From positions 3,344,001-3,408,000 of the forward strand of contig AP019701.1 in NCBI GenBank assembly GCA_006738865.1: a stretch of DNA of 64,000 nt. The letters run 5' to 3'. How positions within the stretch are numbered: position 1 is the first letter of the stretch; each line of letters opens with the position of its first letter. Both the position numbers and the translations under genes were made by a program. This DNA is from Allostella sp. ATCC 35155. Its GTDB lineage: Bacteria > Pseudomonadota > Alphaproteobacteria > ATCC43930 > Allostellaceae. Below are positions 37,762 through 63,186 of the stretch, in pieces. The notes beneath the pieces were generated by a model, which searched no databases, was not told the DNA's origin, and worked only from the letters and a program-made list of their open reading frames with translations.

Positions 37762-38127
37762 GCGCGCGGCCCCGGATCGGCCGATCCCGACGTTCCATCG
37801 CACCGGAAGGAAGGACCTTGCCCTGAGCGCGAACCGCAGCGGGGCGGGGTCACGGAAAGGCGCTCCGGCGGGCGCCCGTGCGTCCTTCGGCTTCGCTCAG
37901 GACGAGGACGTTCCGTCGCGTGGGAAGGACGAAAGGCCATGACCGCATGGAAAGGAAGGACCTTGTCCTGAGCGCGAAGCGCAGCGGAGCGGTCGAAGGA
38001 CGCACCGTCCCCGGCGGCACGCCCGCCAAGCGGGCGCCCGTGCGTCCTTCGGCTTCGCTCAGGACGAGCGACGTGCCGTCGCATGGGAGGGGAAACCTGC
38101 CCGGGCCGCCGTCATGCTCCGGGCGCC
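37762..38127. repeat. Intergenic region with four copies of a hairpin-forming dispersed repeat
   Basis: About 365 bases between converging genes hold no gene. Two forward copies (about 37879-37907 and 38040-38068; core CGTCCT...AGGACG around TCGGCTTCGCTC) and reverse copies (a degenerate one near 37809-37845 and a long-form one at 37961-38004) alternate. Each copy can fold by its CGTCCT/AGGACG arms. The same family occurs near 51.8, 52.1, 60.6 and 63.1 kb. Confidence 0.75.
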
Positions 38128-51760: not shown

Positions 51761-51974
51761 TGGGCGCGCTGCCCGGGTCGGTGCGTCCTTCGACTTCGCT
51801 CAGGACGAGGTCCTTCCTTCGCATGCGGGGGACAGGGCATGCACGGGCCGGTGCGTCCTTCGACCGCTCCGCTGCGCTGCGCGCTCCGGACAAGGCTCTT
51901 CCTTCCCACGCGATGGAAGGCCTTGGCCTGAGCGAAGTCGAAGGACGCACGGGCGGCCGCCGGAGCGCCGGGCC
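51761..51974. repeat. Dispersed hairpin repeats after the GT2 gene (block 1)
   Basis: Two forward copies and one reverse copy of the repeat family lie here: a short form at 51782-51810 (arms CGTCCT 51784-51789 and AGGACG 51802-51807), a long form at about 51851-51894, and a reverse copy at 51921-51950. No gene is seen. Block 1 is partly duplicated further on. Confidence 0.75.
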
Positions 51975-52062
51975 GTGACCCCGCCCCGCCTCTTCCAGGC
52001 CATGGCGGGTGCCGTCCAGGGCGCGGCAGAGTGTTTCTTCGTGCGGCTGGCTGGCGAACTGC
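51975..52062 (+). pseudogene. Duplicated 5' fragment of the GT4 glycosyltransferase gene
   Basis: From the GTG at 51975, 28 codons (VTPPRLFQAMAGAVQG, then AAECFFVRLAGEL) match the start of the intact gene at 52259 with few changes. After LAGEL the frame runs into repeat sequence. The similarity also covers about 48 bases upstream of the GTG, so 51927-52060 and 52211-52344 are a 134-base direct duplication with an offset of 284. The frame stays open until a stop overlapping the GTG of the intact gene (GTGA at 52259-52262). Confidence 0.8.
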
Positions 52063-52070
52063 CGGCGGCG

Positions 52071-52234
52071 GTGCGTCCTTCGACTGCTCCGCTGCGCTCC
52101 GCGCTCAGGACAAGGCCGTTCCTTCGCATGCGGGGGAAGAGCATGGCGGCAGCCTGGGCGAGGTTCCGGTCCTGGCCGTACTTCCTTCGCACGCGAAGGA
52201 CCCTCCTCGTCCTGAGCGAAGTCGAAGGACGCAC
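52071..52234. repeat. Dispersed hairpin repeats before the GT4 gene (block 2)
   Basis: A long-form forward copy (about 52071-52114) and a short reverse copy (52204-52234) of the repeat family surround some 90 bases without a gene. The inside segment carries GCATGCGGGGGA-like sequence also seen in block 1. Confidence 0.75.
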
Positions 52235-52258
52235 GGGCGCCTGCCGGAGCGCCGGGCC

Positions 52259-53290
52259 GTGACCCCGCCGCGCCTCTTCCAGGCCATGGCGGGTGCCGTC
52301 CAGGGCGGGGCGGAGAATTTCTTCGTGCGGCTGGCGGGTGGGCTGCACCGCGCGGGCGTGCCGCAGAAACTCGCGATCCGCAGCAACCCGGTGCGCGCCG
52401 CCGCGCTGCGCGCGGAGGGGGTGGAGCCGGTCGAGCTGCCGTTCGGCGGCTGGCTCGACTTCCGCACCCGGCCCGCCCTGCGCCGCCTTGCCCGGGACTG
52501 GCGGCCGGCGGTCGTGCTGACCTGGATGAACCGCGCCACCCGGATGATGCCGCGCGGACCCTGGGTCCATGCCGCGCGCATGGGCGGCTACTACGACCTG
52601 AAGTACTACCGCCACTGCCACCACCTCGTCGGCAACACGCCCGACATCGTCGCCCACATCGTCCGCCAGGGCTGGCCGGCCGAGCGCGCGCACTACCTGC
52701 CGAACTTCGTCGACGACCGGCCCGCCGCGCCGGCCGACCGCGCGGCCCTCGCCACGCCGGCGGACGTGCCGCTGCTGCTGGCGGCCGGGCGCCTCCACCC
52801 CAACAAGGGCTTCGACACGGCGCTGGAGGCCTTGGCCCGCCTGCCGGACGCCGTGCTGTGGCTGGCCGGCGAAGGGCCGGAGCGCGCCGCGCTGGAGGCG
52901 CAGGCGGCCCGCCTCGGCATCGCATCCCGCGTCCGCTTCCTCGGCTGGCGCGAGGACATGCCGGCGCTCCACGCCGCGGCCGACCTCTTCGTCTGCTCCT
53001 CCCGCCACGAGCCGCTCGGCAACATCGTGCTCGAGGCCTGGGCGCATCGGAAGCCGGTGGTCGCCGCCCGCTCGCCCGGGCCCGAGGGGCTGATCGCCGA
53101 CGGCGAGTCCGGCCTGCTGGTGCCGAAGGACGACCCGGCCGCCCTCGCCGCCGCCATCGCCCGTGTGCTGGCCGACCCCGCGCTCGCCGCCCGCCTCGGC
53201 GAAGGCGGACGCGCCGCGCTCGACCGGCAGTTCTCGGAGGCCGCCGTGGTCGGCCGGTATCTCGACTTCTTCGCCCGGATCGCCCGCTGA
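52259..53290 (+). CDS. Glycosyltransferase family 4
   Basis: This 343-residue GT-B glycosyltransferase has a C-terminal donor domain with LLLAAGRLHPNKGFDTALEA, VRFLGWREDMPALHAAADLF and SSRHEPLGNIVLEAWAHRKP (the EX7E motif). The GTG at 52259 was chosen because the frame further upstream is repeat sequence. The N-terminal domain shows AENFFVRLAGGLHRAGV. It likely adds sugar to the lipopolysaccharide core. It overlaps the next gene by one base (TGATG). Confidence 0.88.
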   Translation: MTPPRLFQAMAGAVQGGAENFFVRLAGGLHRAGVPQKLAIRSNPVRAAALRAEGVEPVELPFGGWLDFRTRPALRRLARDWRPAVVLTWMNRATRMMPRGPWVHAARMGGYYDLKYYRHCHHLVGNTPDIVAHIVRQGWPAERAHYLPNFVDDRPAAPADRAALATPADVPLLLAAGRLHPNKGFDTALEALARLPDAVLWLAGEGPERAALEAQAARLGIASRVRFLGWREDMPALHAAADLFVCSSRHEPLGNIVLEAWAHRKPVVAARSPGPEGLIADGESGLLVPKDDPAALAAAIARVLADPALAARLGEGGRAALDRQFSEAAVVGRYLDFFARIAR

Positions 53291-56476: not shown

Positions 56477-56758
56477 CTACCCCGGCCAGGGACAGTTCGC
56501 CCGCCCGCAGCCGCGGGCGCCCTTGGCCGGGATGAAGGCGCCGCAGGTGCCGCAGGCGACGAGATCCTCCACCGGCGGCGCCTCCGGCTCCGGCTCCTTC
56601 CGCCGCCGCCACGCCGCCGGCCGCTTCGCCTGCTCGCGCCGCACCTGCCCGCCCCGGTCCCGCGCATCGGCCATGCGCGAGATCCAGCGGAACAGCGTCC
56701 ACACGGTGACGATGATCCCGATGAGGGCGAGGAGCTTGGTGAGGGAGAGGCCGAACAT
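56477..56758 (-). CDS. Small membrane protein with C-terminal zinc-ribbon-like motif
   Basis: This 93-residue protein has one N-terminal membrane segment (LTKLLALIGIIVTVWTLF), a charged linker (VRREQAKRPAAWRRRKEPEP) and a Cys cluster at the end (CGTCGAFIPAKGARGCGRANC), giving two CxxC-like pairs for zinc. It resembles short PP0621-like proteins of proteobacteria, whose function is unknown. Its start lies at the edge of the AT-rich island. Confidence 0.75.
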   Translation of the reverse strand: MFGLSLTKLLALIGIIVTVWTLFRWISRMADARDRGGQVRREQAKRPAAWRRRKEPEPEAPPVEDLVACGTCGAFIPAKGARGCGRANCPWPG

Positions 56759-58660
56759 GCTAGATTGTTAAGGCAATCGACCGAGCAACACAACCTAGCA
56801 CCCACATAAGTGACCACAGGAGCAGACTGACGTCACCCCTTTTTGGAACCTAGTTTTGCAACTTGCCAAATTTCTTTATCCTAATACTATTAATCTTGCT
56901 CTCGGCGCCGATTTGCCGAACAGCCGACGTCGCTAAGTCTGAGACACGTTGACGCTCAGCCGATGCACCCTGGAACCGACCTGCCTTCAATGTCGCATAG
57001 ATCATTTGCCGCATTGTGGCGCCTTGTTCCGCCTTGAAGGCGGCAACGAAATTCTCTACGCGAAGCCTCGATAGCGTATCTATAGTGTCGTCAGTATCGT
57101 TCTGTACTAGATCAATCATGAGCTGCCGAGCATCAATCTCCACAGCCTCTACCTTTGCCCTGCGCTGCAGATCATCAACGAGCGTCGGATCGATATAGTC
57201 ACCAAATCCTTGCAGATCTCTCAACTGAGATGCCCAACCTCCATTCCAGTGAGCATCTACGAACATGGCAGTCACGTGGTCTGCCTCCTGTTCGTTGCCA
57301 ATATCCCTAAAAAGTCGTACTATTGAGTTTATCTTGGACAAGTCAAGGTACGCGATGTTTTCCTGAGCAAGAATAGTCATCCGCCGCACAATATCTTCAG
57401 CATTGCCCTGAAACGAGTCATGAAATAAATCCCATTCCTCTCCAAGAGCGGACCCTGTACGTATTCTCCTATCTCTCTCCTGATAATCTAGAACGATTGG
57501 GCGAATTAGATCAATTCCAAAATATCCGCTCCTAATACCAGATAATATAGCTTCATCTAAATCGGACTCCCACGCATGTCGATACCGATCCAACAGATCC
57601 GACCAAGCCAATTCTTCGGATGACAACGTTTTTTCAGCATCATTCTGCAGTATTCCCCATTTGAATCTTCTCAGGAAGTCATAAGTTGGAGCCAGACTGG
57701 GTTGGTCGTGACACCAGACGCTCAGCACAACACTCGATATGCAGGACTCCCATACTGCGCGATCGACATCATGAATTATCTCTTCGAGACGCCTCGCAAA
57801 ATCATAGCAACGACGAATGACGCGTATATTTGTTATATTCAATTTTACTGCACGATCGCGCACATACCCCGCGCACTCACCACTTCCAGATATCGCAATG
57901 TTAGCGGAGTATGCTGAATCGGGTTTAAATTCAAAATACTTGTCTACGACTTTGTCCAAATTTCGCCGAAACGCTTCTTTATCACAATCACTCAGTTCTT
58001 CTTGATTGAATATTATGCAGACTCGGCATTTTTGCTCAACTCTTAACCTCGAAACCATCCCCAGTAAATCGGAAATATCTATCTTGCTACTCTTGCGCTC
58101 AATATCATCAATGCAGACTATTTGATTTTGCATAGACATATACATTATATGGGACATTATATCTTTTGTTAGATTGTTCTCTATCCACTTCAGATTTCTA
58201 ACCAAGCCGAACGCACTTCCCCACGTAATTTTCTTCTGAATCTTTTTTATGCGATCAATATGACCCGCGACCCCTGTCCGATCGGATGGCTGACTATCGA
58301 AAAGCTTCACTGTTCTCGACAACAACATATTCTTTATCGAGTCTATGCTCTCTGCACCAAACGCAGATACATAAGAATAGTTTTGATCCTTCCTTCTACC
58401 TGAATTGGCTTCAGCTTGGACTGCATCATTCCATAAGTGCGTCTTCCCCACCCCCCAGGCACCTACGATACAAATTACGCCTGGAGTATCATCTCCGAGA
58501 AATCTAGCCACCTCATCTCGAAGTACTTTCATAGACATAGGAGCCTCACCATCGGAAGATCAGAATCAACACATCTGATAAACAGAGTTGCCACTCTCCT
58601 ATAGACCGATTCGTAATCGCTCTATTCTGTCCGCAATAGTATCCATGAAATCGCCGATCG
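56759..58660. mobile_element. AT-rich genomic island with a single NTPase gene
   Basis: Base composition changes abruptly from GC-rich to clearly AT-richer DNA at about 56759 and back at about 58660. The segment holds one long minus-strand gene and no integrase, transposase or clear terminal repeats. Its codon use (AAT, ATA, TTA, AGA) is unlike all neighbours. The left edge falls at the start of the small membrane protein gene, the right edge inside the 3' end of the sppA-like gene. It was very probably acquired by transfer. Confidence 0.8.
56850..58538 (-). CDS. KAP-like P-loop NTPase in an AT-rich island
   Basis: This 562-residue protein has a Walker A motif, GAWGVGKTHLW (Lys32), near the N-terminus. 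YSYVSAFGAESIDSIKNML fits the conserved strand of KAP-type NTPases. Walker B is QIVCIDDIER (139-147), and CRVCIIFNQEEL resembles the sensor strand. The C-terminal half (about 220-562) is helical with no recognised domain, and no membrane segment is evident. The ATG at 58538 follows GAGG. KAP and related STAND-like NTPases include phage-defence proteins, so a one-gene defence role is possible but unproven. Codon use and base composition mark it as foreign. Confidence 0.75.
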   Translation of the reverse strand: MSMKVLRDEVARFLGDDTPGVICIVGAWGVGKTHLWNDAVQAEANSGRRKDQNYSYVSAFGAESIDSIKNMLLSRTVKLFDSQPSDRTGVAGHIDRIKKIQKKITWGSAFGLVRNLKWIENNLTKDIMSHIMYMSMQNQIVCIDDIERKSSKIDISDLLGMVSRLRVEQKCRVCIIFNQEELSDCDKEAFRRNLDKVVDKYFEFKPDSAYSANIAISGSGECAGYVRDRAVKLNITNIRVIRRCYDFARRLEEIIHDVDRAVWESCISSVVLSVWCHDQPSLAPTYDFLRRFKWGILQNDAEKTLSSEELAWSDLLDRYRHAWESDLDEAILSGIRSGYFGIDLIRPIVLDYQERDRRIRTGSALGEEWDLFHDSFQGNAEDIVRRMTILAQENIAYLDLSKINSIVRLFRDIGNEQEADHVTAMFVDAHWNGGWASQLRDLQGFGDYIDPTLVDDLQRRAKVEAVEIDARQLMIDLVQNDTDDTIDTLSRLRVENFVAAFKAEQGATMRQMIYATLKAGRFQGASAERQRVSDLATSAVRQIGAESKINSIRIKKFGKLQN

Positions 58661-59444
58661 ATGGTCCCGAGCTCGCCGTCCTCGACCACATCCACCACCG
58701 CCGCTTCGGCGGCGGGTTCATCAGCGGCAGGCGGACATTCTCCCCGTGGCGGGCGCGCATCGTCGAGCGGATTTCGCCGACCGCGTCCGCGAGGCCGAGT
58801 TCGACGGCGCGCAGGCCGACCCAGACCTCGCCGGTGAAGAGGACTTCCGGCGGGGCCTTCAGCTTCGCCCCGCGGCGGGCGGTGACGTGGGCCTGGAAGA
58901 CCTGGTGCAGGTCGGCCTGGATGGCGGAGAGGCGGGCGACGTCCTCGGGCTTTTCGGGCAGGAACGGGTCCCACAGGGACTTGCGCTCGCCGGCGGTGTG
59001 GACGCGGCGCTCGATGCCGAGGCGGCGCAGCGCGTCCTGGAAGCCGAAGCCGGCGGCAATCACGCCGATCGAACCGACGAGGCTGGCCGGGTCGACGACG
59101 ATCTCGTCCCCCGCCAGCGCCAGCCAATAGCCGCCCGAGGCGGCGACATCCTCGACGAACACCGTCACCGGCAGGTTCTTGGCCGCCGACAGGTCGCGGA
59201 TGCGGCGCGCGATCAGGCTGGACTGGGCGGGCGAGCCGCCGGGGGAGTTGACGACGAAGGCGACCCCCTTCGCCCCCGGCATCGCGAAGGCGCGGTCGAG
59301 CACGGGCGCCAGGCCCGCCAGCGTGAGGCCGCCCTGCGAGAGCGTGCCGCCGCGGCCGATGACGCCGTCGAGCCGGACGACCGGCACCAGCGGCGGCCGC
59401 GGCAGGCCGAGGCGCAGCGCCAGGCGGTCGAAGCGAATGCCCAT
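58599..59444 (-). CDS. sppA: SppA-like S49 serine peptidase
   Basis: This 281-residue S49 protease has the nucleophile region ASGGYWLALAGDEIVVDP (Ser in VAASGGYWLA), VVNSPGGSPAQSSLIA, LVGSIGVIAAGFGF and the Lys base in AGERKSLWDPF. It is the short, soluble alphaproteobacterial type, and such enzymes degrade signal peptides or membrane protein fragments. The last 40 residues or so (from MNPPPKRRWWMW to RLRIGL) include AT-rich codons at the island border, so the natural C-terminus may have been replaced. The start ATG at 59444 lies 27 bases after the methyltransferase gene. Confidence 0.88.
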   Translation of the reverse strand: MGIRFDRLALRLGLPRPPLVPVVRLDGVIGRGGTLSQGGLTLAGLAPVLDRAFAMPGAKGVAFVVNSPGGSPAQSSLIARRIRDLSAAKNLPVTVFVEDVAASGGYWLALAGDEIVVDPASLVGSIGVIAAGFGFQDALRRLGIERRVHTAGERKSLWDPFLPEKPEDVARLSAIQADLHQVFQAHVTARRGAKLKAPPEVLFTGEVWVGLRAVELGLADAVGEIRSTMRARHGENVRLPLMNPPPKRRWWMWSRTASSGPSIGDFMDTIADRIERLRIGL

Positions 59445-63100: not shown

Positions 63101-63186
63101 TGCGTCCCTCGACTTCGCTCGGGATGAGCAGATTTCTTCTTTTGTTGTAAGGACATACCTCATCCCGAGCGAAGTCGAGGGGCGCA
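63101..63186. repeat. Inverted pair of GTCCC/GGGAT-subtype repeats
   Basis: A forward copy at 63101-63128 and a reverse copy at 63159-63186 flank a 30-base AT-rich spacer (TTTCTTCTTTTGTTG). The whole can form a large hairpin between two converging genes and might act as a bidirectional terminator. Confidence 0.7.

Follow-up and report, generated by a model that had tools for sequence, protein, structure and literature searches.

A foreign one-gene island with a KAP-family NTPase, a candidate phage-exclusion gene

Introduction

What does a single AT-rich NTPase gene do in a GC-rich chromosome, and how did it get there? The question is raised by a short island in the 64-kb stretch of DNA analysed here as a whole (the window). 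An initial annotation had described this island as a sharp composition change over about 1.9 kb, foreign and devoid of a mobility gene, with one 562-residue KAP-like P-loop NTPase as a candidate defence gene. We asked whether the island was acquired, to which family the gene belongs, in which genomic settings its relatives are found and which function these settings suggest.

Results

An acquired AT-rich island holds a single gene

The GC content in 500-base windows is 0.39-0.50 within the island and 0.63-0.81 outside, the profile dropping from about 0.72 and recovering inside a few hundred bases, and the limits given by the initial annotation (56759-58660) are very close to ours (Table 1). 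The KAP gene has a GC content of 0.449 and a GC3 of 0.448, compared to a GC3 of 0.92-0.97 in three other window genes and above 0.9 in the genes flanking it, and when the 64 kb is ranked by GC content in 1.7-kb windows, each of the 25 lowest overlaps this gene. One edge of the island falls just before the start codon of a Zn-ribbon-like gene and the other within the final ~20 codons of an S49 peptidase gene. Around the KAP gene, which is the only one of its kind in the 5.34-Mb genome, we found the S49 peptidase, the Zn-ribbon-like protein, a dihydroorotase-like enzyme and a methyltransferase, with no defence gene among these neighbours. Within the island we detected no second family-supported gene, tRNA, known RNA family or long terminal repeat, and neither a mobility gene nor an att-like repeat. 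Site-specific integration with att repeats was rejected, since the sole repeat shared by the two ends is a direct one of 7 bases, which is at chance level.

The site is empty in sister genomes. In three genomes of the same genus, whose S49 peptidase counterparts share 72-77% protein identity with the window protein, the S49 gene is separated from the Zn-ribbon-like gene by 3 to ~66 bp with no insert, versus ~1.9 kb in the window. Among 42 further genomes from the order, neither a search with the protein nor one with the PHROG profile detected a copy, and class-wide 7 of the 385 genomes have a match, own genome included. The KAP island is thus of foreign origin and horizontally acquired, as initially proposed.

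At the 3' end of the S49 gene, the final ~20 codons (58599-58655) are AT-rich and encode a tail unlike that of the sisters, with the reading frame kept. Since the low GC content starts inside this gene and the C-terminal tail differs from those of the sisters, we infer that the 3' end of the S49 gene was replaced by exchange on insertion. A donor carrying an S49 gene next to the KAP gene was rejected, as no S49-like neighbour occurs among the relatives.

Elsewhere in the window, interspersed repeats of up to 142 nt with the core CTTCGACTTCGCTCAGGACGAGG are found in both orientations (51763-52346, 37885-38069 and 63158-63180). The core has six copies in the 64 kb versus none in shuffled sequences. 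These repeats look like REP-type intergenic elements and give rise to false ORFs.

Table 1. Coordinates of the island, its gene and flanking genes in the window
Feature	Position	Strand	Basis
KAP-family P-loop NTPase gene, phrog_4740-like, 562 aa	56850..58538	minus	ORF, Pfam, PHROG, alignments
Acquired AT-rich island, ends approximate	56760..58655	none	GC profile; empty site in three same-genus genomes
S49 peptidase (SppA-like) gene, flanking	58599..59444	minus	Pfam; comparison with sisters
93-aa protein gene, flanking; hydrophobic N-terminus, zinc-ribbon-like C-terminal end	56477..56758	minus	ORF; directly after S49 gene in sisters
N-terminal NTPase domain, ~residues 1-260, AAA+/STAND-like fold	57759..58538	minus	AlphaFold model, Foldseek
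C-terminal all-helical domain, residues 262-562, proposed sensor	56853..57755	minus	Model pLDDT 91.1, best PDB E 0.06
Walker A GAWGVGKT, residues 26-33	58440..58463	minus	G26, W28, G29, G31, K32, T33 invariant in 87 sequences
Walker B IVCIDDIER, residues 140-148	58095..58121	minus	D144, D145, E147, R148 invariant in 87 sequences
C-terminal motif around A539, S547, N550, R553	56880..56924	minus	A539, N550, R553 kept in 94-97% of relatives

The gene belongs to a phage family of KAP NTPases

The ORF begins with ATG and contains both motifs on which the initial annotation had relied (GAWGVGKTHLW and QIVCIDDIER). First, Pfam KAP_NTPase matches residues 18-203 with 26.4 bits, above the gathering cut-off of 20. 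Second, residues 1-557 of the 562 align with positions 1-623 of the 627 of the PHROG 4740 profile at E 3.7e-47. Because of these two matches, we consider the ORF to be beyond chance. KAP proteins are defined by a Walker A motif together with a Walker B motif of the hhhhDDL[DE]R type, and the window protein carries this signature as GAWGVGKT and IVCIDDIER, at invariant positions. Among the 87 family members aligned, 69 match Pfam KAP_NTPase at E 0.001.

All 87 sequences also match PDC-S49, a PADLOC candidate single-gene defence family that is unrelated to peptidase family S49. The match of the window protein to it (residues 24-208, E 1.2e-20) is confined to the KAP domain and covers positions 29-200 of the 624-position profile, so we did not assign the protein to PDC-S49. 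Judged by its profile match, the window gene is instead no orphan and is a full-length member of the described phage family PHROG 4740, which is functionally unassigned. The initial annotation had spoken of a candidate for an undescribed system, a description that is correct only in part. The family itself is on record as PHROG 4740, and the KAP NTPases Tmn and QatA are already known as phage-defence proteins.

A single-sequence scan of bacterial genome contigs returned nothing, and a query with the alignment retrieved relatives from bacterial genomes, in at least 229 stretches, and from 43 viral contigs. These relatives, mostly of 550-600 aa, share ~18-30% identity with the window protein. 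Their distribution is very sparse across Pseudomonadota, Cyanobacteriota, Acidobacteriota and candidate phyla, with full-length copies on plasmids of Rhizobium, Sinorhizobium, Agrobacterium, Nostoc, Pantoea and Klebsiella, and the full-length family is carried by temperate phages, phage-plasmids and plasmids. In the tree, the family crosses phyla and the window copy is placed among alphaproteobacterial copies on a long branch (2.08), at 30% identity or less to its relatives. For the protein ids of two E. coli relatives, phrog_4740 or PDC-S49, we found no paper in the literature collection searched.

A conserved NTPase core and a family-wide helical C-terminal half

Across the 87 sequences, 22 positions are invariant, including G26, W28, K32, T33, F60, G61, D144, D145, E147, R148, N237 and R239. 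The reading frame of the window gene is intact over the full length of the family and every invariant NTPase residue is retained. The NTPase starts near residue 1, and no Pfam domain besides KAP_NTPase scores above cut-off. We saw no sign of a nuclease, TIR, protease or membrane segment in the protein, and a hydropathy scan found no transmembrane-like stretch (highest 19-residue value 1.07).

AlphaFold, run with the 87 sequences, gave a model of the whole protein with a pLDDT of 89.9 and a pTM of 0.81. For the NTPase part, Foldseek returned ORC/Cdc6, RuvB, TnsC, Apaf-1 and NRC3 at E ~1e-4 to 2e-3 with low TM scores. The C-terminal half was all helical when modelled alone; it matched no solved structure below E 0.06, and the matches at or above this value were to helical-repeat proteins only. 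Searches by sequence found no solved relative for the protein and chance-level matches for the profile, and the viral structure library yielded generic AAA proteins only. A repeat-like sensor is at most a reasonable guess for this half. The initial annotation had considered a new effector or sensor there; the C-terminal half is a uniform helical domain across the family and not a newly fused effector.

Relatives occupy three recurrent genomic settings

Clustering of the neighbours of 123 loci gave three settings that recur, with the remaining loci scattered. No gene is common to all 123 loci, and an operon partner was rejected, as partners recur only inside one phage type or one bacterial order.

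The first setting is P2-like. The P2 portal gene is found beside the KAP gene in 17 of the 43 viral loci, of which 14 also have gpA; the order gpA - KAP - portal - terminase was confirmed with PHROGs in one P2-like viral locus, and in two E. coli P2 prophages an annotated KAP relative lies exactly between gpA and gpQ. These two E. coli members are WP_001518830.1 and WP_053877087.1. This site carries old and tin in P2 and is a hotspot of tested defence systems in E. coli, although partition genes, a toxin and other non-defence cargo are also found there and several systems cloned from it gave no activity (PMC9122126). The window copy lies elsewhere, on the chromosome, outside any prophage and with no phage genes around. 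At the hotspot of E. coli NZ_OZ547033.1 (L162:5970-9646), an LA2681-family HEPN gene precedes the KAP relative and is possibly a second defence gene. The relatives in the gpA-gpQ hotspot support the defence role that the initial annotation had proposed for the window gene. We regard the island as probably an acquired one-gene cassette whose soluble KAP-family NTPase acts alone in phage exclusion, that is, in anti-phage or superinfection immunity.

The second setting consists of phage-plasmids that we take to be SSU5-like. Here the KAP gene has a fixed place between the ParA-like and DnaB-like helicase genes, and the same order with ParA-like gene, DnaB-like helicase and primase recurs in 8/8 loci reaching far enough. 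The KAP copy of these phage-plasmids (as in L150:6898-13258) is diverged and an apparent core gene. This constant order, together with ORC/Cdc6 and other replication initiators among the fold relatives, would fit a phage or plasmid maintenance factor acting in replication, partition or copy control, of which the chromosomal copies are leftovers. However, the KAP gene of P2-like phages is accessory hotspot cargo and lies outside the replication module, many copies, the window copy included, stand alone on a chromosome, and ORC/AAA+ matches are common to all such NTPases (TM at most 0.3 by query length), so we consider a maintenance role unlikely.

The third setting is chromosomal. In 13 Desulfuromonadales-type loci the KAP gene has the same upstream gene, in 10 of them also a second one, with DnaJ-like and oxidoreductase genes nearby, and these KAP copies form a single clade with 100% support. 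In L101:6970-9680 and 12 similar loci, the KAP gene follows genes for proteins of 98 aa and 232 aa, neither of which has a PHROG match. A stable host role is possible in this order, and the common neighbourhood would agree with a bacterial housekeeping or stress NTPase that phages capture now and then. As a general account of the family we find this even harder to accept than maintenance, because outside Desulfuromonadales locations are variable, the cross-phylum distribution is very sparse and the window copy is an insertion missing from sisters. One housekeeping locus with vertical descent, which the initial annotation had named as evidence against defence, is thus seen inside Desulfuromonadales and not generally. 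The least probable reading of the window gene is that of a relic, now functionless, from an old prophage or plasmid: the lack of a mobility gene, the long tree branch and the reported tendency of KAP genes to become pseudogenes often (PMC3995785) would agree with it, but, as described above, neither the full-length reading frame nor any of the invariant NTPase residues has been lost.

The initial annotation had suggested a survey of defence genes around the relatives as a check of phage defence. With PADLOC, we found ~22 of 375 neighbouring proteins of genomic relatives (~62 loci) matching defence families at E <5e-49, versus 4-6 of 262 proteins in 16 random 20-kb stretches (Fisher p 0.004-0.02, with controls taken from other genomes and operon neighbours that are not independent). 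Counts were made at this threshold, where the match lists are complete, and family names were used to estimate the number of distinct proteins by hand. As the first control included a SIR2-HerA island by chance, we added a second one. Defence-type neighbours comprise PrrC (with a type I methylase), SoFic, ShosTA (ShosA), PsyrTA (PsyrT) and AbiLi, as well as Dpd (DpdF), JetD, PtuB, IetA, SngC and BrxH-type matches. The surroundings of several plasmid relatives include TIR, ThiF/JAB, S8 peptidase-ATPase, DEAD helicase or toxin-antitoxin genes. Defence genes are thus moderately enriched near relatives, with a rough control, and we take this as no more than supporting evidence.

Discussion

How could such a protein exclude phages? 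The helical C-terminal half may sense an infection signal, such as a phage protein or a DNA structure. Sensing would permit the AAA+/STAND-like core to oligomerise, driven by ATP, and the assembled form would stop the infection, either through a grip on phage DNA or on a replication complex, for instance, or through a shutdown of the cell. What we observe in the protein is the set of NTPase motifs and the layout of the domains; sensing, assembly and arrest by the NTPase are proposed by analogy with Tmn (PMC11846954), QatA (PMC12424860) and the general STAND/AAA+ switch logic.

Several observations count against phage exclusion. First, the fixed places in SSU5-like phage-plasmids and in Desulfuromonadales fit a more stable role. 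Second, the window copy has a long branch and no defence neighbour. Third, the P2 hotspot also contains non-defence cargo and systems that gave no activity when cloned. Fourth, the effect of QatA deletion in qatABCD is limited.

Beyond the window, we tentatively propose, at somewhat below even confidence, that these relatives form a widespread candidate single-gene defence family. Its members, soluble KAP NTPases marked by a helical C-terminal domain specific to the family and by a conserved N-x2-R end motif, would sense infection and stop it through the NTPase core, with no separate effector domain. If true, an effector-free NTPase blocking phages would point to a direct action of the switch itself. 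The family is compact, its gene stands alone in many settings and E. coli P2 prophages carry it, so a laboratory test would be easy; as a kind the gene is nothing unusual, but it makes a useful test case.

Comparison with known systems

Like the window protein, Tmn is a KAP-type NTPase encoded by a single gene, and it defends E. coli (PMC11846954). However, Tmn has two transmembrane segments where the window protein has none, and no Tmn-named PADLOC match was found for the latter at E up to 1. QatA multimerises and binds nucleic acid, and its deletion affects defence by qatABCD to a limited extent (PMC12424860). In contrast to that system, the window KAP gene has no adjacent qatB, qatC or qatD and no Qat profile match, and we do not class it there. 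With AVAST and bacterial NLRs, the window protein shares a STAND/AAA+-like ATPase, a helical C-terminal part and possibly a sensor-switch logic, and Foldseek finds it only weakly similar to Apaf-1 and NRC3; it differs from them by having no N-terminal effector domain, which places it outside these groups. The Caulobacter Lyp CARD-NLR was set aside, as its paper is unrelated to KAP proteins. For PifA of the F plasmid, associated with T7 exclusion, the PADLOC results of the window protein include no entry of that name, in a library that may have no PifA model.

Closer to the window gene, PDC-S49 has the KAP domain in common with it and differs in the C-terminal two thirds of its profile, which are unmatched. 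The likeness to PHROG 4740 is full-length, the difference being that the window copy is chromosomal and diverged. Superinfection immunity was suggested earlier for the KAP copies of Campylobacter prophages (PMC3995785). Finally, relatives of the window gene use the same gpA-gpQ site as old, tin, DUF4238 and other P2 systems (PMC9122126), with a different protein family.
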